DNA of 64,000 bases from Variovorax sp. UMC13 (GTDB taxonomy: Bacteria; Pseudomonadota; Gammaproteobacteria; Burkholderiales; Burkholderiaceae_C), in assembly GCF_014170375.1 (NCBI RefSeq), contig NZ_LZZW01000011.1, forward strand, positions 124,001 through 188,000, given 5' to 3'. The position numbers were made by a program, and so were the translations under genes. Position 1 is the first letter of the stretch. Every line of letters begins with the position of its first letter. The notes under the pieces are model-generated. The model ran no database searches, was not told the DNA's origin, and saw only the letters and a program-made list of their open reading frames with translations. Shown in pieces: positions 50,153-58,232 of this stretch.

Positions 50153-50325
50153 GGGAACCTCGTCTGGTGGATGGGGGGCAAAGAAAGCGCGCCGGGGCGC
50201 GCGACGCTGCCTGGCCCTCTACTTTATTGCATCCCCGACTGCCAATTAATCGCCGGGAAATCCTTTGATTGATGACAAAAATGAAGGTAATGATGGAGCG
50301 GTCGCGCCGGCAACGGCCGCATGGC

Positions 50326-50331
50326 GACAAT
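50326..50331 (+). promoter_or_regulatory. Candidate -10 element for mvaB
   Basis: GACAAT 35 bases upstream of the mvaB ATG in the glcB-mvaB divergent region. No clear -35. Confidence 0.3.
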
Positions 50332-50366
50332 GCGATCCTCTTCCTTCGAACGCCACGGATGTCCCC

Positions 50367-51284
50367 ATGCCCCAGCCCGATGTGCTGATCAGCGAGGTCG
50401 GCCCTCGCGACGGACTGCAGTCCGTCCACGCCACGATGCCCACGGCGGACAAGCTGCGCTGGATCGACGCGCTCTACGCCGCGGGCGTGCGCGAGATCGA
50501 GGTCGCCTCCTTCGTGCCCGCGCGGCTGCTGCCGCAGATGGCCGATGCCGCCGAGGTGGTGCGCCATGCGGTCTCGCTGCCCGGCCTCACGGTGATGGCG
50601 CTGGTGCCCAACCGGCGCGGCGCCGAGGCCGCGCTGGCCGCGGGCGTGCACAAGCTCACCGTGCCGGTGTCGGCCAGCGAGGCGCATTCGCTGGCCAACG
50701 TGCGCAAGACGCGCGCGCAGATGGTCGAGGAGGTGCGCGCCATCGCCGAGCTGCGCCGCAGCCTCGCACCGCAGGTCGGCTTCGAGGCCGGCCTGTCGAC
50801 GGCCTTCGGCTGCACGCTGCAGGGCGAGGTGCCGGAGGACGAGGTGATCCGCCTCGCGGTGCAATGCATCGAGGCCGGCGCCGACGAAGCCGGGCTGTCC
50901 GACACCGTGGGCTACGCCAACCCGGCCCAGGTGCGGCGGCTGTTCCGCCGGCTGCGCGCCGAGCTGGGCGACAAGGCCGGCGCCGCCCACATGCACAACA
51001 CGCGCGGCCTGGGCCTGGCCAACTGCCTGGCGGCCCATGACGAGGGTGTGCGCACCTTCGATGCCTCGCTGGGCGGCCTGGGCGGCTGCCCCTATGCGCC
51101 GGGCGCCTCGGGCAATGTGGTGACCGAGGACCTGGTCTTCATGTTCGAGGCCATGGGCGTGCGCACCGGCATCGACCTGCCGCAGCTGATCGCGGCGCGC
51201 GCGCCGCTCATGGCCGGCCTGCCCGGCGAACCGGTGTACGGCATGACGCCCGAGGCCGGCCTGCCCAAGGGCTTCCGGCCCTGA
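50367..51284 (+). CDS. mvaB: Hydroxymethylglutaryl-CoA lyase
   Basis: A 305-residue HMGL-type lyase, cleaving 3-hydroxy-3-methylglutaryl-CoA to acetyl-CoA and acetoacetate at the end of leucine breakdown. Signatures are EVGPRDGLQ at residues 10-18, EVASFVPARLLPQMAD, the metal-site AHMHNTRGLGLAN, and the loop GLGGCPYAPGASGNVVTED with the active-site Cys. Related acyl-CoA lyases act on other 3-hydroxy acids, so the substrate is likely but not certain. It is not beside other leucine genes; a CoA-transferase gene that often partners such lyases lies 5.8 kb downstream, beyond the sulfur locus. Confidence 0.9.
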   Translation: MPQPDVLISEVGPRDGLQSVHATMPTADKLRWIDALYAAGVREIEVASFVPARLLPQMADAAEVVRHAVSLPGLTVMALVPNRRGAEAALAAGVHKLTVPVSASEAHSLANVRKTRAQMVEEVRAIAELRRSLAPQVGFEAGLSTAFGCTLQGEVPEDEVIRLAVQCIEAGADEAGLSDTVGYANPAQVRRLFRRLRAELGDKAGAAHMHNTRGLGLANCLAAHDEGVRTFDASLGGLGGCPYAPGASGNVVTEDLVFMFEAMGVRTGIDLPQLIAARAPLMAGLPGEPVYGMTPEAGLPKGFRP

Positions 51285-51304
51285 GGCGGCGGTCGGCATC
51301 GAGG

Positions 51305-52534
51305 CTACGGCCCAGGAACAGCGGCACCCGCGGCGGCGCCCTGCATCGCGGCGAAGCCCGCGTCCAGGTCGGCCAGCAGGTCGGCCGGGTCTTCCAGCCC
51401 CACGTGCAGGCGGACCACCGGTCCGCGCCCCTGCCAGTCCGCGCGGCTGCGGGCGCGCGCCATGTCGACCAGGACGGCGAGGCTCTCGAAGCCACCCCAG
51501 GAGGCACCGATGCCGAACAGCGACAGGCTGTCCACCAGCCGCTCGGCCGCCAGCGCCGAGATCTGCGGCTGCAGTTCGAAGGACAGCAGGCCGTTGGTGC
51601 CGGCGGCATCGCGCAGCCACAGGTCGTGGCCCGGATGCGTCGGCAGCGCGGGGCAGAACACGGTCGCGACTTCCGGCCGCGACTGCAGCCAGGCGGCCAC
51701 CTGCAGCGCGTGGCGCTCGTGCATCTGCAGCCGCGCCGAGAGGGTGCGCATGCCGCGCAGCACCAGCCAGGCGTCGTCCGGGCTGACCGTCATGCCGAAG
51801 GTGTCGCTGCGCCGCGCCAGCGGTTCCCAGGCCTCGCGCGTGGTGCACACGGTGCCCATCATCACGTCCGAGTGCCCTGACAGGTACTTGGTCGCGGCCA
51901 TGATGGAGATGTCGGCACCGAGGGCGAGCGGGCGGTACTGGCAGCCCGAGCCCCAGGTGTTGTCGGCCGCGAGCCAGGCGCCGTGCGCGTGGGCCAGCGC
52001 GGCCAGGCGGGGCAGGTCGCACAGCTCGTAGACCAGCGACCCCGGGCATTCGGCGTAGACCATGCGCGTCGCGGGCGTGAGCAGTTCCGCCACGTCGCTG
52101 CCGTCGGCGCGGAAGAAGGTGCAGCCGATGCCGTAGGACGCGAGGAAGTCCTCCGCCAGCTTGCGCACGGGCTCGTAGACGCTGTCGGACATCAGCACGT
52201 GGTCGCCGGGCTTCAGGTAGGCCAGCAGCGTCATGCCGACGGCCGCTAGGCCGGTCGGGAACAGCCGGGTGCGGAAGCCGCCTTCGAGCTCGGTGACCGC
52301 GTCCTCGAGCGCGAAGGTGGTGGGCGTGCCGCGCGCGCCGTAGGTGAACAGGCGCTCGTCGCCGCGGCGCGCCCGCATCTCGCGCTGCGCCGCGACGCTG
52401 TCGAACAGCACGGTGCTGGCGCGCACCAGCGGCGGGTTGACCGCGCTGCCGCCGGCATAGGCGGGCGCCTGGCCCGCGTGCAGCAGGCGGGTCTGCAGGC
52501 CCAGGCCGGGCGCAGGGGGGGATGGGGCACGCAT
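51305..52534 (-). CDS. metC: Cystathionine beta-lyase-like PLP enzyme
   Basis: A 409-residue fold type I PLP enzyme of the Cys/Met metabolism family. RLLHAGQAPAYAGGSAVNPP is at the N-terminus, TYGARGTPTTFALEDAVTEL and LFPTGLAAVGMTLLAYLKPGD follow, and the PLP lysine (about 213) is in IMAATKYLSGHSDVMMGTV. SWGGFESLAVLVD and VVRLHVGLEDPADLLADL complete the fold. MetC cleaves cystathionine, and often cystine, to pyruvate, ammonia and a thiol or persulfide. Last gene of a four-gene minus-strand cluster with a thiol dioxygenase and a rhodanese, so a role in breaking C-S bonds of an imported sulfur compound is plausible. The precise reaction is unproven. Confidence 0.85.
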   Translation of the reverse strand: MRAPSPPAPGLGLQTRLLHAGQAPAYAGGSAVNPPLVRASTVLFDSVAAQREMRARRGDERLFTYGARGTPTTFALEDAVTELEGGFRTRLFPTGLAAVGMTLLAYLKPGDHVLMSDSVYEPVRKLAEDFLASYGIGCTFFRADGSDVAELLTPATRMVYAECPGSLVYELCDLPRLAALAHAHGAWLAADNTWGSGCQYRPLALGADISIMAATKYLSGHSDVMMGTVCTTREAWEPLARRSDTFGMTVSPDDAWLVLRGMRTLSARLQMHERHALQVAAWLQSRPEVATVFCPALPTHPGHDLWLRDAAGTNGLLSFELQPQISALAAERLVDSLSLFGIGASWGGFESLAVLVDMARARSRADWQGRGPVVRLHVGLEDPADLLADLDAGFAAMQGAAAGAAVPGP

Positions 52535-52550
52535 GGTCGCTCGCGCCGGG

Positions 52551-53570
52551 TCAGTCGATCTTCGCGCCGGACAGCTTCACCACGCGCGCCCAGCGGACGA
52601 TGTCCTGCTGCAGCTGGGCGGCAAAGGCGTCGGCCGTGCCGGCGACCACCTCGCTGCCGCCGTCGGTGATCAGCCGGCTGACCTCGGGCATGCGCAGCGT
52701 GCGCACCAGCGCTTCATTGAGGTAGGCCACGCGTTCCGGCGGCGTGCCGGCGGGCGCGAAGAAGCCGTACCAGTCCTCGAAGCGGGTGTTCGGGTAGCCC
52801 AGTTCTTCCAGCGTCGGCACCTTGGCGAACACGCCGATGCGGCGTGGGCTGGTGACGGCGAGGGCACGCATCTTGCCGCTCTGCAGCATGCCGGCCACCG
52901 AGGCGGTGGAGCTCACGAGCACGTCCACCTGGTGGCCCAGCAGGTCCGTGATGGCCGGCCCCGCGCCCTTGTAGGGCACGTGCGTCATCTCGATGCCGCT
53001 GTCCTTGCCGAGCACCACGCCGAACAGGTGCGACAGGGTGCCGTTGCCGGGCGTCGCATAGGTCACCGTGCCCGGGTGGCTCTTGGTGCGCGCGGCCAGG
53101 TCGGCGAAGGTCTTGTAGGGCGATTCGGCCGCCACGACCAGCGCCAGCGGCGCCGCGTTGATCTGGGTGATCGGCACGAAGTTCTTCAGCGGGTCGAAGC
53201 CGGCCGAGGCATAGAGACTGGGGTTGACCGCCATCAGCGAGACCTGGGCCGTGAGCACGGTGTAGCCATCGGCCTTGGCGTCGGCCACGGCCTTGGCGCC
53301 GATGTTGCCGCCCGCGCCGCCGCGGTTCTCAACCACCGCCGACTGGCCCGTCAGCTCCGGCAGCCGGGTGGTGACGAAGCGGGTGGTGCCGTCGTTGCCG
53401 CCGCCGGGTGGGAAGGGCGAGATGAAGCGGATCGGTTGCGACGGGAAGCCGTTGCGCTGCGGCAGCGGCTCGGCGGAGGCGACCGGCAGCATGAAGGAGG
53501 CGGCGCAGCCGACGATGGCGGCCCATGGCAGCAGGGACGGGAGACGAAGCACACGAAGCACGGAAGGCAT
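52551..53570 (-). CDS. Bug/TctC-type tripartite tricarboxylate transporter binding protein
   Basis: A 339-residue periplasmic solute-binding protein. The long signal region ends about ASFMLPVASAEP. The family start PIRFISPFPPGGGNDGTTRF follows, then VVENRGGAGGNIGAKAVADAK, TYATPGNGTLSHLFGV, HVPYKGAGPAITDLLGHQVD and FFAPAGTPPERVAYLNEAL. Bug proteins are greatly expanded in Burkholderiales and usually bind carboxylates, with or without a linked TctAB channel. No channel gene is adjacent. Within the sulfur cluster it probably captures the substrate, perhaps a sulfur-containing carboxylate. Confidence 0.88.
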   Translation of the reverse strand: MPSVLRVLRLPSLLPWAAIVGCAASFMLPVASAEPLPQRNGFPSQPIRFISPFPPGGGNDGTTRFVTTRLPELTGQSAVVENRGGAGGNIGAKAVADAKADGYTVLTAQVSLMAVNPSLYASAGFDPLKNFVPITQINAAPLALVVAAESPYKTFADLAARTKSHPGTVTYATPGNGTLSHLFGVVLGKDSGIEMTHVPYKGAGPAITDLLGHQVDVLVSSTASVAGMLQSGKMRALAVTSPRRIGVFAKVPTLEELGYPNTRFEDWYGFFAPAGTPPERVAYLNEALVRTLRMPEVSRLITDGGSEVVAGTADAFAAQLQQDIVRWARVVKLSGAKID

Positions 53571-53624
53571 GGCGAAACTCCTGAAAGTGGAAGAGGCGGA
53601 AAACGGGAAAGGCGCTAGCGAGAT

Positions 53625-55205
53625 CTAGGCCGATGCGGCCGGCAGCCGGAAGCCGGCGAGTTCGTCGGCGTCGAGCTGCGCGACCAGGCCGGTCTCCCAG
53701 GCCAGGTAGCGGCGCGCGGCCTCCTTGTTGCCGTCGTGCCGGTCGTGCACGAAGAACAGGTAGTCGATGCACTGCGCGTCAGGCGGCGTGTCCGGGCTCG
53801 CGGCCACGGGCTGTCCGGCTTCGCGCCAGGCCGCCATGCCGCCGTCGAGCAGCAGCGGCGCGGGGCGCCCGCCGGGCCATTCGGTGGCGGCCCACGCGGC
53901 GAGCGCGGGCGTGTCGGCGACCAGCACGACCGGCCGCGTCTCGTGCTGCAGCAGCGAGGCCAGCGCGGGCCGGATCGACCAGCGCGCCTGCGGGATGTGC
54001 GCCGCGCGGAAGGCCATGCCGGGGCGCAGGTCGACCAGCGCCACCTCGTCGCGGCGCAGGCGCGCGGCCAGCGTCGCCGCATCGATGCCGGCCAGCGCCG
54101 GGGGCTGCGGCGCATCGGCCGGCGGGAGCGCCAGGCCGCTGGCCAGCCCGCCTTCGAGCACGCTGGCATCGTGGCCCATCTGGCGCAGCCAGCTCGCCAC
54201 CGTGGGCGCGCGCACACCGTCGTCGTCGATCAGCACCAGGCGCGCGCCGCGCACGCCGACGTACTGGTCACCGGCCTGCATCAGCTGCCCGCCCGGCGTG
54301 TGCTGTGCCGTCGGCAGGCTGCCCGCGGCGAACTCCTCGGGCGTGCGCACGTCGCACAGGAACAGCGTGCGCTGCGGGTCGGCGGCCCAGCCGCGGACCG
54401 TGGCCGCATCCACCTGCGGCACCTCGAAGCGCTGCGCGAGCGCCTCGGCGGCCGGCTTCAGCGCGGGGCTGCCCGAGTCCTCGGCGTAGCCGCGGGTGCC
54501 GCCGTGCGCCAGCCGGTGGTCGGCGAGGTACCAGCCCTGCGTGCCGTTCTCCAGCGCGTACACCGGGTTGGGTACGCCCAGGTTGATGAGCGTCTGCGCG
54601 CCGATGATGCTGCGCGTGCGTCCGGCGCAGTTGACCACGATGGGCATGGTCGCATCGGGCACCAGCGTCGACACCCGCCAGGCCAGTTCGCCGTTGGGGC
54701 AGCAGGTGGCACCGGGGATGTTCATCTTGTGGAACTCGGACAGCGGACGGCCGTCGAGCACCGCCACGGGTTCGCCCTGCGCCAGCATCCGCGCCAGGCG
54801 GTCGGCCCCGATGCGGGGCGTGTGGTAGGTCTGCTCGGCGAGCTCGCCGAAGGTCTTGGACGGCAGGTTCACGCCCGCGAACAGGACGAAGCCCGCCGCC
54901 TTCCATGCGCGCGTGCCGCCTTCGAGCACCCGGACCTGGGTGTAGCCCAGGGCCTCCAGCCGCGCGGCGGCCCGCTCGGCCACCTGGGGCGTGCTGTCGT
55001 CGCCCGCGTCGCAGACCACCAGGCGCACGCTGCGGCGCGGCACCAGCCGGGGCGCGTCGATCTCGAGCCGGCTGTAGGGCAGCGGCACCGCATAGAACAG
55101 GTGCGCTTCGCCGTACTGGCCATGCTCGCGCACGTCGAGCAACGCGACCTCCTGTCCGTCGTGCAGCCAGGATTTCAGTGTGGAGGGAGACAGGTAGGTC
55201 GTCAT
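53625..55205 (-). CDS. Four-domain rhodanese (sulfurtransferase)
   Basis: A 526-residue protein made of four rhodanese-like units: about 5-110, 130-235, 265-360 and 370-480. Unit 2 has the canonical catalytic loop with Cys193 in VNCAGRTRSI. Unit 1 has Cys65 in VVCDAGDDS. Units 3 and 4 have lost the cysteine (VLIDDDGVRAP and LVADTPALAA) and may be structural or substrate-binding. Rhodaneses move sulfane sulfur from persulfides or thiosulfate to acceptors. Lying between a thiol dioxygenase and a lyase, it would handle persulfide sulfur in this pathway. There is no signal peptide, so it is cytoplasmic. Confidence 0.88.
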   Translation of the reverse strand: MTTYLSPSTLKSWLHDGQEVALLDVREHGQYGEAHLFYAVPLPYSRLEIDAPRLVPRRSVRLVVCDAGDDSTPQVAERAAARLEALGYTQVRVLEGGTRAWKAAGFVLFAGVNLPSKTFGELAEQTYHTPRIGADRLARMLAQGEPVAVLDGRPLSEFHKMNIPGATCCPNGELAWRVSTLVPDATMPIVVNCAGRTRSIIGAQTLINLGVPNPVYALENGTQGWYLADHRLAHGGTRGYAEDSGSPALKPAAEALAQRFEVPQVDAATVRGWAADPQRTLFLCDVRTPEEFAAGSLPTAQHTPGGQLMQAGDQYVGVRGARLVLIDDDGVRAPTVASWLRQMGHDASVLEGGLASGLALPPADAPQPPALAGIDAATLAARLRRDEVALVDLRPGMAFRAAHIPQARWSIRPALASLLQHETRPVVLVADTPALAAWAATEWPGGRPAPLLLDGGMAAWREAGQPVAASPDTPPDAQCIDYLFFVHDRHDGNKEAARRYLAWETGLVAQLDADELAGFRLPAASA

Positions 55206-55328
55206 GCGCGGAAGGGCTGGGTGGAGGGAGGGGACGACCGGCGTGCGCGGTCGCTGCCGCGGCGGCGCGGGGGCCGTCGCAGCGGGGTGTGTGTGGAGGT
55301 CGGGACAGGCGGCTGCCGCCGCGGCGCA

Positions 55329-55931
55329 CTAGCGGCGCGTCTGCACGCCGATGCCCATGGTCTGGCAGGTGCCGGCGTCCAGGTCGTAGCCGGTGCGCGC
55401 GTTCAGCGTCTCCAGCGCCCGGCCGTACATGTGGAGATGGCGGATCACCTGCTCGCCCTGGATCTCCACCGAATGGATGTCCTCGGGCATCAGCGCGATG
55501 CCGGTGCCGGGCGCGACGACCACGCACTCGGTCTCCCGCAGCCGGCCCACGCCGGGCACCGTGCCGTCGTCCAGCCGCTCGTAGACGCGGTTGTGCTCGG
55601 TGCCCTCGACCGCCGCGATGCAGGCCCAAGTCGTGTGGTTGTGCGGCACGATGCGCTTGCCCGGCCGCATCACGTTGAGGTAGAGCGCGAAGCTCTGGTC
55701 GGCGTCCTCGGCGATCAGGTAGCGCGCCTGGTGCTCGCCGGCGGCGGGCGCCTGGAAGCTGTCCTCCTGCCAGAGCGGCTTCTGGTCGGCGAGCTGCAGC
55801 AGCGCGTCCAGCACCGGAACCAGCGTCTCGCGGGTCGCCTCGCCGCCCCGCAGCGTTTCCTTCATGTGCGCGATGGCGGACTGCACCGCCTGCTGGCGTT
55901 CGTCGGCAAGGGAAGCATGGGTCGCGGTCAT
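55329..55931 (-). CDS. Cupin thiol dioxygenase (cysteine dioxygenase family)
   Basis: A 200-residue cupin. The iron-binding three-histidine set is seen as H97 and H99 in [16 protein letters not shown] and H153 in [10 protein letters not shown], as in bacterial cysteine dioxygenase relatives. Members oxidise the thiol of cysteine, 3-mercaptopropionate or mercaptosuccinate to a sulfinate with O2; the last two are known from Variovorax paradoxus. The sequence alone does not tell which. First gene of the cluster, directly behind a promoter region with palindromes and facing a LysR regulator. It could also be an uncharacterised specificity. Confidence 0.8.
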
Positions 55932-55977
55932 GGAAATGGTTCCTTCGGAATTCGTGGTCGGTGGGATTCGCCGGACT

Positions 55978-55989
55978 TCACTTTAGTGA
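55978..55989. promoter_or_regulatory. Palindrome in the dioxygenase/LysR divergent promoter
   Basis: tcactttagtga is a perfect 12-base palindrome overlapping a candidate -10 for the dioxygenase gene. A related half (catcagtaaagt, 56029-56040) lies 40 bases away in inverted orientation, next to the LysR start, suggesting a regulator-binding region. Confidence 0.5.
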
Positions 55990-56008
55990 CGACCGTCCGT
56001 TCGAACAA
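55980..56008 (-). promoter_or_regulatory. Candidate promoter of the sulfur operon
   Basis: On the minus strand TTGTTC (56003-56008) and TAAAGT (55980-55985) are exactly 17 bases apart, about 50 bases before the dioxygenase start. The -10 overlaps the palindrome tcactttagtga. Confidence 0.45.
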
Positions 56009-56046
56009 TCCAGCTGCGGCACTGAAAACATCAGTAAAGTTAATCA

Positions 56047-56925
56047 ATGGGCACACTGGATCTCGAACTGCTGCGCGCGCTGGCTGCGATCGTGGCGCAC
56101 GACGGCTTCGCCGCCGCGGCGGTGCACCTGGGCAAGACGCAGTCGGCCGTGACGCAGCAGATGCAGCGGCTGGAGGAGCAGATCGGCCATCCGCTGTTCG
56201 AGAAGCACGGCCGCAACAAGCGCCTCACCGACCATGGGCAGCGGCTGCTCGTCTACGCCCGCCACCTCTTGGCGATCAACGACGAAGCCCTGCGCAGCCT
56301 GCAGCAGGGCCAGCTCGAAGGCGTGCTGCGCATCGGCGCGCCGCACGACGTGGCCGACACCATGCTGCCGCTGCTGCTGACCGAGATCGCGCGCAACTCG
56401 CCCCTGCTGCAACTCGACATCCACATCGGCCGCAGCCCCTTCCTCATGAAATCGATCCAGAGCGGCGAGCTCGACATGATCATCTCCAATCGCAGCGATC
56501 CGCAGCTCGAAGGCGTGGTGCTGCGGACTTCGCCGACCGTGTGGCTGTGCGGCGCGGGCTACCTGCACGATCCGGCCAAGCCGGTGCCGCTGATCATGGC
56601 GGACGGGCCCAGCATTTTCCGCCGCATCGGCCACGAGGCGCTGGATGCCGCCGGCGTCGCCTGGACGCCGCGCTACACCTCGTCGAGCCTGATCGGCATC
56701 AAGGCCGCCCTGCGCGCGGGCCTGGGCGTGACGGCGCGCGGCGTCGAGCAGCTCGATGCCGGCCTGCGCGTGCTCGGGCCGGGCGACGGCATGCCGCGCC
56801 TGCCCGACCTCGTCTATTACCTCTACGTGCGCAGCCACGTCGTCAACCCGGTCACGCGCCAGGTCTTCGACACCCTGAAGAAGCACCTGGGGCTGCTGCG
56901 CTCCGACGGCCTGGAGCGGTCGTGA
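56047..56925 (+). CDS. LysR-family transcriptional regulator of the sulfur locus
   Basis: A 292-residue LysR regulator. The N-terminal winged helix (1-60) reads LDLELLRALAAIVAHDGFAA and GKTQSAVTQQMQRLEEQIG; the rest is a periplasmic-binding-protein-like effector domain (about 88-285). It is divergent from the dioxygenase gene across 115 bases that hold palindromes, the usual arrangement of a LysR activator and its target operon. The inducer is unknown, presumably the sulfur substrate. Start at 56047 gives the normal N-terminus. Confidence 0.88.
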   Translation: MGTLDLELLRALAAIVAHDGFAAAAVHLGKTQSAVTQQMQRLEEQIGHPLFEKHGRNKRLTDHGQRLLVYARHLLAINDEALRSLQQGQLEGVLRIGAPHDVADTMLPLLLTEIARNSPLLQLDIHIGRSPFLMKSIQSGELDMIISNRSDPQLEGVVLRTSPTVWLCGAGYLHDPAKPVPLIMADGPSIFRRIGHEALDAAGVAWTPRYTSSSLIGIKAALRAGLGVTARGVEQLDAGLRVLGPGDGMPRLPDLVYYLYVRSHVVNPVTRQVFDTLKKHLGLLRSDGLERS

Positions 56926-57047
56926 CGCACGGGCGTCCACGCATCAGCGTCCCTTATGGTTCCAAGCCCTGCCCTCGGCGATGCCGCATGCCGCGCCGGC
57001 CGCCGATCCGCTGAAAATAGCGCTTTTCCAGTGTCCCAGGCTCACCC

Positions 57048-58232
57048 ATGTCCCATGCTCCACCCCTGCCCTATGCGGGCATCCGCGTCGTCGAATTCAC
57101 CCACATGGTCATGGGTCCGACCTGCGGCATGCTGCTGGGCGACCTGGGCGCCGAAGTCATCAAGGTCGAGCCGATCGCGGGTGACGACACGCGCCGGTTG
57201 CTGGGGTCGGGCGCGGGCTTCTTTCCCACCTTCAACCGAAACAAGAAGAGCATCGCGCTCGACCTGAAGAAGCCCGAAGGCGTGGCGGCCGCGCTCAAGC
57301 TGATCGCCAGCGCCGACATCGTGAGCGAGAACTTCAAGCCGGGCACGATGAAGAAACTGGGCCTCGACTATGACGCCCTGCGCCAGCGCGACCCGCGCCT
57401 GATCTACGTGAGCCACAAGGGCTTCCTGCCCGGCCCCTACGACCACCGCACCGCGCTCGACGAGGTGGTGCAGATGATGGGCGGCCTGGCCTACATGACC
57501 GGCCGCGCCGGCGACCCGCTGCGCGCGGGCACCAGCGTGAACGACATCATGGGCGGCATGTTCGGCGCCATCGGCGCCATGGCCGCGCTGCGCCAGCGCG
57601 AACAGACGGGCGAAGGCTGCGAGGTGCAGTCGGCGCTGTTCGAGAACAACATCTTCCTGGTGGCGCAGCACATGATGCAGTTCGCCGCCACCGGCAAGGC
57701 CGCCGACCCGATGCCCAGCCGCATCTCGGCCTGGGGCATCTACGACGTGTTCACGGTGCAGGGCGGCGAGCAGATCTTCCTGGCCGTGGTGAGCGACAAG
57801 CAGTGGGCCATCTTCTGCCAGGCCTTCGGGCTGGCCGAGATGCAGGCCGACCCGCGGCTTGCGACCAACAACGACCGCGTGCGGGCGCGCGACTGGATGA
57901 TGCCGATCCTGCGCGCGCACCTGGCCTCGCGCAGCGCGGCCGAACTCAGCGCGGTGTTCGAGCGCAACGAGCTGCCCTTCGCGCCGATCGTCAAGCCGCA
58001 GGAGCTGTTCGACGACCCGCACCTCAACGCCACCGGCGGCCTGGCGCCCGTGCGCATGAACGACGGCAGCGAATCCAAGGTGCCGCTGATGCCCTTCACG
58101 CTGGGCGGCCAGCGTCCGGGCCTGCGGCTGCAGCCCCCGCTGCTGGGCGAGCACACCGATGCGCTGATGAAGGAAGTCGGCTACAGCGACGCGGAGATCG
58201 CCGCACTGAAGGCGGGCGGCGCGGCGGCCTAG
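57048..58232 (+). CDS. CaiB/BaiF family III CoA-transferase
   Basis: A 394-residue CoA-transferase. The N-terminal YAGIRVVEFTHMVMGPTCGM and GDLGAEVIKVEP are typical, with FNRNKKSIALDLKKPEG and the catalytic Asp (about 165) in GTSVNDIMGGMFGAIGA. Family III enzymes transfer CoA between carboxylic acids, often with succinyl-CoA as donor. In Variovorax one member (Act) activates 3-sulfinopropionate, the product of 3-mercaptopropionate dioxygenase, which makes a link with the preceding locus attractive. A role with mvaB-type lyases is the alternative. The TAG stop shares bases (CTAG) with the stop of the convergent efflux gene. Confidence 0.85.
   Translation: MSHAPPLPYAGIRVVEFTHMVMGPTCGMLLGDLGAEVIKVEPIAGDDTRRLLGSGAGFFPTFNRNKKSIALDLKKPEGVAAALKLIASADIVSENFKPGTMKKLGLDYDALRQRDPRLIYVSHKGFLPGPYDHRTALDEVVQMMGGLAYMTGRAGDPLRAGTSVNDIMGGMFGAIGAMAALRQREQTGEGCEVQSALFENNIFLVAQHMMQFAATGKAADPMPSRISAWGIYDVFTVQGGEQIFLAVVSDKQWAIFCQAFGLAEMQADPRLATNNDRVRARDWMMPILRAHLASRSAAELSAVFERNELPFAPIVKPQELFDDPHLNATGGLAPVRMNDGSESKVPLMPFTLGGQRPGLRLQPPLLGEHTDALMKEVGYSDAEIAALKAGGAAA

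Follow-up and report, generated by a model that had tools for sequence, protein, structure and literature searches.

Background

Mercaptosuccinate, which has been studied as a precursor of polythioesters, is oxidised in Variovorax paradoxus B4 and Advenella mimigardefordensis DPN7 by a mercaptosuccinate dioxygenase (Msdo), and in both bacteria the msdo gene is clustered with genes for a rhodanese and a "cystathionine beta-lyase" (PMC5373536). The Advenella enzyme is 60% identical to that of V. paradoxus B4 (its gene was described as 'similar to msdoB4'); deletion of msdo or of lysR abolished growth on mercaptosuccinate, and deletion of the adjoining four-gene amino-acid transporter of the PAAT type gave a wild-type phenotype (PMC5373536). 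The sulfinosuccinate that is formed breaks down spontaneously into succinate and sulfite, which is the toxic end product of the published pathway, and the rhodanese of strain B4 was connected with the synthesis of a cofactor of sulfite oxidation; the accessible part of that report assigns no function to the lyase of the locus (PMC5373536). Here, we analysed a stretch of 64,000 nucleotides from Variovorax sp. UMC13 (contig NZ_LZZW01000011.1, positions 124,001 to 188,000; hereafter the window), in which positions 51305-56925 very probably represent an msdo locus, that is, a LysR-controlled catabolic cassette whose dioxygenase would perform the Msdo reaction on mercaptosuccinate.

Two other described systems bear on this locus. 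In Pseudomonas protegens CHA0, a sulfurtransferase forms a unit with a 3-mercaptopropionate dioxygenase, and its deletion did not significantly change the level of 3-mercaptopropionate (PMC12947264). This unit and PA2602/PA2603 resemble the locus of the window in joining a thiol dioxygenase and a sulfurtransferase, but the dioxygenase is only about 30% identical (PDB 3uss) and no lyase is mentioned in the available part of the source (PMC12947264). The scm/yxe clusters, which encode ScmK or 2SL, act on S-(2-succino)cysteine, which is N-acetylated, cleaved and deacetylated to give cysteine (PMC12757645, PMC9706529). The 2SL enzyme also has a minor activity on free S-(2-succino)cysteine (PMC9706529), and the accessible parts of both papers contain no mention of mercaptosuccinate.

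The msdo Locus of the Window

The cassette consists of five genes, four of which are transcribed from the minus strand in the order dioxygenase, rhodanese, binding protein and lyase.

51305..52534, minus strand: MetC-like pyridoxal phosphate (PLP) C-S lyase (TIGR01324, 414.7 bits against a cut-off of 365.9)
52551..53570, minus strand: Bug/TctC extracytoplasmic solute-binding protein (PF03401, 1.1e-68)
53625..55205, minus strand: tetra-rhodanese of 526 aa (four PF00581 stretches; relative of PDB 1yt8)
55329..55931, minus strand: msdo, cupin thiol dioxygenase of 200 aa (PDB 8vni, 2.5e-96)
56047..56925, plus strand: divergent LysR regulator (profile match)

The gaps between the four minus-strand genes are 123, 54 and 16 bases, and the lysR and dioxygenase genes diverge across 115 bases. 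An earlier note on this DNA had listed these five genes and a CoA-transferase downstream of lysR; all six were found at their places, and the profile matches agree with the families named there. The same note regarded the combination of a tetra-rhodanese and a lyase as unlike the described mercapto-acid pathways, but a rhodanese and a lyase gene beside msdo had already been reported, and the window shares these three genes with the loci of V. paradoxus B4 and A. mimigardefordensis DPN7 (PMC5373536). An adjoining LysR gene, required in Advenella for growth on mercaptosuccinate, is a further likeness (PMC5373536). The Advenella locus differs in its order, lysR-msdo-metC-rhodanese, and in having an amino-acid ATP-binding cassette (ABC) transporter, whereas the window has rhodanese-Bug-metC inside a pair of genes for a 3-hydroxy-3-methylglutaryl-CoA (HMG-CoA)-lyase-like protein and a CaiB-type CoA-transferase (PMC5373536). 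The locus of the window is a typical representative of the msdo loci already known, and the lyase is its one testable new point.

The msdo product had no Pfam or NCBIfam match at E ≤ 0.001. A structure search returned PDB 8vni, 'Mercaptosuccinate dioxygenase', at 2.5e-96, with cysteine dioxygenase (Cdo) and 3-mercaptopropionate dioxygenase (Mdo) chains at 8.3e-07 and weaker. Identity was 149/194 (77%) to 8vni, compared with 38/121 to the Cdo 4qma and 37/122 to the Mdo 3uss, these two values (30-31%) covering only the aligned stretches of the structure search. In a tree of 55 rows, the protein was placed among the Msdo rows and the two Cdo/Mdo rows were split off at 100/100; the Aminobacter and L161 rows are loosely placed in this tree, and the position of L161, which has a zero branch, was not relied on. 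The motif HxHxY (His165, His167 and Tyr169) was present in 17/17 aligned rows, and the Mdo/Cdo chains have SxHxY; a Ser-His-Tyr triad is named in the accessible part of PMC10966181. Judged from these comparisons, the cupin protein is an ortholog of Msdo, so its substrate, which the earlier note had left unassigned, is not open, and the thiol dioxygenase forming a sulfinate proposed in that note is supported by the same predicted orthology.

The rhodanese had been described as a four-domain protein, and its four PF00581 stretches bear this out, but the catalytic-loop cysteine is kept across relatives only in domain 2. Among 81 aligned rows (two cut rows of 83 having been dropped, and loop positions being matched by eye), Cys193 of domain 2 (CAGRTRS) was present in all 81. 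The loop of domain 1 carries a Tyr in 71/81 rows and Cys65 in the window and one other row (2/81), domain 3 has an Asp and domain 4 mostly an Ala. Its most probable task is the handling of sulfite or sulfane sulfur. We take PDB 1yt8 to be the tetra-rhodanese PA2603, and the P. protegens sulfurtransferase is presumably of the same type. Two more tetra-rhodanese paralogs occur in the genome of the window, L138 (42%) and L139 (37%), the latter just after a TctC/Bug gene. For the Bug protein, the closest solved structure was Bug27, followed by 2dvz ('putative exported protein', which we take to be BugE) and then BugD.

Conservation of the Cassette

Genome contigs were scanned with the dioxygenase and the best 80 of 266 relatives were kept. 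Presence was counted from tblastn matches; a simple gene caller missed genes, for example in L057 and L126. A rhodanese match was found in 79/80 of these msdo loci and LysR in 78/80. A MetC relative was present in 76/80, in all 76 cases on the strand of the dioxygenase and with its start at most 3.2 kb from the dioxygenase end. Bug proteins of at least 50% identity occurred in 69/80 loci, 65 on the dioxygenase strand and 4 beyond LysR on the other strand. The conserved unit is thus LysR–Msdo–tetra-rhodanese–MetC, mostly accompanied by Bug, and the CoA-transferase is not a member. In two of the four loci lacking a MetC match (L059 and L078), the sequence stops short of a complete rhodanese gene, and the other two, Thauera L090 and Acidovorax L102, have none within 9 kb.

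The gene order is mostly msdo-rhodanese-bug-metC in Comamonadaceae and msdo-metC-rhodanese-bug in Achromobacter. In Aminobacter, it is metC-msdo-rhodanese with a branched-chain-type ABC transporter after it, and in Bordetella genomosp. 1 the Msdo, MetC and rhodanese genes are followed by a family-3 (SBP_bac_3) binding protein, two permeases and an ATPase. Beyond the five cassette genes, no gene cluster was found in more than 21 of the loci that were clustered. This 80-locus comparison supports the organosulfur locus suggested in the earlier note as a set of genes inherited together, with the lyase, the rhodanese and the binding protein in it; the dioxygenase groups with Msdo rather than with plain Cdo, and the MetC gene accompanies it in nearly all loci. 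One record, named Pantoea sp. 18069 (L086), has a Comamonadaceae-type msdo locus, which may be due to transfer, contamination or misnaming.

The Linked Lyase and Its Sister Group

In a tree of 46 rows, the 25 betaproteobacterial MetC proteins linked to Msdo formed one branch side (96/94), and 15 lyases encoded beside sister dioxygenases formed a group of their own (98/99). The two groups were joined at 83/97, below the starred level, and stand apart from E. coli MetC and from four paralogs encoded in the window genome. The placement of some outer rows is itself unsure, as their branches are very long. The distances between Msdo-type proteins and between their MetC partners were correlated (r = 0.89 for pairs among 40 loci and 0.82 for 25 Msdo-only loci), values that shared descent alone also yields.

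Like E. coli MetC, the linked lyases keep Tyr56, Tyr111, Lys210, Trp340 and Arg372 in 78/78 rows, including the PLP lysine (Lys210) and the arginine for the alpha-carboxylate (Arg372). They differ from it at Arg58, which is replaced by Ala and followed by Arg at position 59 in all 78 rows; the window lyase has the corresponding motif YGARGT. For the E. coli enzyme, the available part of PMC5025676 describes bonds of Arg58' with the PLP phosphate and with Tyr111, and a contact of this residue to the distal carboxylate of cystathionine. The loss of this residue therefore speaks against cystathionine as the substrate, without naming a new one. The sister lyases have Arg58 in 14/15 and His59 in 15/15 rows. 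Three further MetC-type paralogs (41-47% identity) are encoded elsewhere in the window genome, and the MetC-type paralogs L132 and L133 of this genome also lack Arg58, having Leu instead.

The sister group of dioxygenases (about 43% identity to Msdo) was examined in 18 loci. In 15 of them (L143-L149, L151-L153, L155, L156, L128, L162 and L163), the dioxygenase gene adjoins a MetC relative together with genes for the permease and the ATPase of an ABC transporter of the polar-amino-acid type; L142, L150 and L154 are without the lyase. Several sister loci also contain a tetra-rhodanese, two (L128 and L151) a 5-oxoprolinase-like set and one a TauE/SafE exporter. Further dioxygenase relatives with a rhodanese, in L157, L158 and L159, had no lyase that we could find. 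A different, third kind of context was seen for a second Msdo-like gene of the window genome (42-46%; L140, 7184-10081). It is flanked by an SBP_bac_3 binding protein on one side and by two BPD_transp_1 permease genes on the other, and a search of 16 kb gave no MetC relative.

A Possible S-(2-succino)cysteine Route

Our reading of these data, which we hold tentatively and at somewhat under an even chance, is that the msdo operon is a catabolic operon for S-(2-succino)cysteine, in which the MetC relative, as a new C-S lyase, would release mercaptosuccinate with no acetylation step beforehand, and Msdo would convert this thiol to succinate and sulfite. An S-conjugate would be taken up with the help of the Bug protein or, in other lineages, of an amino-acid ABC transporter. 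The MetC relative would then beta-eliminate this cysteine S-conjugate, S-(2-succino)cysteine being the best guess, to mercaptosuccinate, pyruvate and ammonia. Finally, Msdo would oxidise mercaptosuccinate with O2 to sulfinosuccinate, yielding succinate and sulfite, a step that is in print for its orthologs (PMC5373536).

If a thiol dioxygenase is supplied by a lyase whose gene adjoins those of an amino-acid importer, the compound taken up should be an S-substituted cysteine, and with mercaptosuccinate as the thiol, the thioether would be S-(2-succino)cysteine. This adduct of fumarate and cysteine is a common damaged form of cysteine. In favour of the lyase step, we count the linkage of MetC to Msdo, the single clade of the linked lyases and its joining to the sister lyases, their uniform exchange of Arg58 for Ala and the distance correlation, together with the amino-acid ABC transporters of the sister loci and of Bordetella genomosp. 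1 and the PAAT transporter of Advenella (PMC5373536). As part of the same tentative reading, at least two lyase and thiol-dioxygenase modules may have diverged together, each acting on another S-substituted cysteine, and the sister module would work with an amino-acid ABC importer.

The scm/yxe clusters share the substrate proposed here (PMC12757645, PMC9706529). They recover cysteine by way of N-acetyl intermediates, whereas in the msdo operon the substrate of the PLP lyase would be the free amino acid, with mercaptosuccinate among the products. No N-acetyltransferase, ScmK/2SL or deacetylase is found among the five cassette genes; the wider neighbourhood is partly annotated, and the genome was not searched for these enzymes. 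A GNAT acetyltransferase gene (L104, 5156-5971) lies about 3 kb from msdo in Achromobacter-type loci, where its neighbours look, by eye, like mnmG, rsmG, parA and parB. In the open-licence literature searched, which did not include the V. paradoxus B4 enzyme paper, we found no link between mercaptosuccinate and succinated cysteine, and the accessible parts of the papers covered give no account of a natural source of mercaptosuccinate or of the reason for the frequent presence of a lyase beside the dioxygenase. If the proposal is right, a puzzling enzyme would have found its natural role, and succinated cysteine could be broken down without acetylation and with a yield of carbon; the sister loci would then be places to look for pathways of other cysteine S-conjugates.

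Several observations weigh against this proposal. The Msdo rows lie on one branch side in only 40% of the bootstrap trees. Thauera L090 and Acidovorax L102, whose surroundings are intact, and also Marinobacter L126 and L161, have Msdo and a rhodanese without MetC, so Msdo can work without this lyase; in L126, the annotated gene spans only part of the Msdo match. The Msdo-linked MetC of Aminobacter (L127, not assigned to any group) has retained Arg58, and in the tree it pairs with a paralog and lies outside the clade. Arg115, fixed in the linked clade, is common to the sister lyases and the paralogs and distinguishes nothing. A thioether substrate does not explain the presence of the rhodanese, and the in-frame fusion of MetC and rhodanese in two Achromobacter assemblies suggests a link to sulfane sulfur instead. 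Lastly, we know of no activity for the window strain or for any MetC of the linked clade. As a separate observation, genes for a CoA ester lyase (HpcH/HpaI), CaiB and MmgE/PrpD lie near msdo in L126 and L102.

Alternative Roles of the Lyase and the Dioxygenase

The fusion belongs to the foremost alternative, which we consider unlikely: the MetC relative would cleave cystine or the disulfide of cysteine and mercaptosuccinate to a persulfide, and the rhodanese would join this sulfane sulfur with the sulfite from Msdo to form thiosulfate. Such a coupling would suit the single open frame of 926 aa that MetC and rhodanese share in 2/17 checked loci (L114 and L123, 9588-12368, from assemblies of Achromobacter aegrifaciens and A. 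xylosoxidans), the two genes being separate in the other 15, and also the invariant cysteine of rhodanese domain 2. Transporters with SBP_bac_3 proteins can carry cystine, which is counted for it as well, as is the toxicity of sulfite as the end product of the printed pathway (PMC5373536). On the other hand, Msdo and MetC occur with no rhodanese match in Ottowia L057, and cystine too has a distal carboxylate, the contact for which is lost with Arg58. In addition, the available part of PMC12947264 mentions no lyase in the P. protegens unit, so a sulfurtransferase beside a thiol dioxygenase needs no lyase.

It is much less probable still that the lyase is an ordinary cystathionine beta-lyase of methionine synthesis that is there by chance. 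Its score exceeds the TIGR01324 cut-off for cystathionine beta-lyases, but it is linked to msdo in 76/80 loci, it belongs to a clade of its own, Arg58 is lost in every linked row, and the genome has three other MetC-type paralogs. The idea that the cupin protein is a plain cysteine or 3-mercaptopropionate dioxygenase, which belong to a related thiol dioxygenase family and of which the latter likewise sits in a unit with a sulfurtransferase, was rejected as scarcely credible on the identity values and the tree split given above.

Probable Regulatory Sequences between lysR and msdo

Two candidate regulatory elements were derived from an alignment of 22 of the 80 lysR–msdo intergenic regions.

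56030..56044, minus strand: probable LysR box ATTAACTTTACTGAT (T-N11-A, dyad), between lysR and msdo
55980..56008, minus strand: probable msdo promoter TTGTTC-N17-TAAAGT

The recurring box, resembling ATTAAyNTTAyTGAwG, was found with at most three substitutions in 52/80 intergenic regions, a count made without a chance control. It has a single match in the window, where 0.00 are expected, the pattern having been derived from the same alignment. A loose promoter pattern, TTGnnn-N16-18-TAnA(G/T)T, fits 78/80 intergenic regions, again without a chance control, and by its consensus we take the msdo promoter to be of the sigma-70 type.

A Core Gene Pair Split by the Cassette

The genes on both sides of the msdo system lie outside it.

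50265..51284, plus strand: HMG-CoA-lyase-like gene, flank (profile match, pairing in congeners)
57048..58232, plus strand: family III CoA-transferase, flank (PF02515, 3.4e-113)
51285..57047: msdo cassette as an insert of 5763 bases between the halves of a core gene pair

A survey of 100 Variovorax genomes, that of the window among them, gave a close CoA-transferase for 99 at E ≤ 1e-140. The HMG-CoA-lyase-like gene was present in 92 of these genomes (E ≤ 1e-100), and 51 had Msdo (E ≤ 1e-60). Among the 29 best-scoring other Variovorax genomes, in which the pair loci were examined, 27 have the HMG-CoA-lyase-like gene immediately before the CoA-transferase, its stop codon overlapping the start of the latter in 25 of these 27. 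In the window genome, 5763 bases separate the two genes, and this space is taken up by the msdo cassette; a core gene pair with no relation to the cassette is thus split into its halves. Across the 80 msdo loci, the HMG-CoA-lyase-like gene had 0 matches and the CoA-transferase three, of 25-32% identity.

The earlier note had proposed a new route for a sulfur-containing carboxylate in which the CoA-transferase activates the sulfinate and feeds it into acyl-CoA metabolism. The gene is indeed present and adjoins lysR in the window genome, but its absence as a unit member from the msdo loci and its pairing in congeners led us to reject it as a pathway component, and no CoA activation is needed because sulfinosuccinate decays by itself (PMC5373536); we give this route next to no credence.

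The ends of the cassette share no word of nine or more bases, direct or inverted, so no insertion mechanism is shown. The tree rows nearest to the window Msdo and MetC are those of Acidovorax sp. CCYZU-2555 and V. paradoxus ISL-79, a placement that fits transfer of the cassette without proving it. In 14 other genomes, picked by eye, that have Msdo and the CoA-transferase on one contig, the two genes are more than 200 kb apart.

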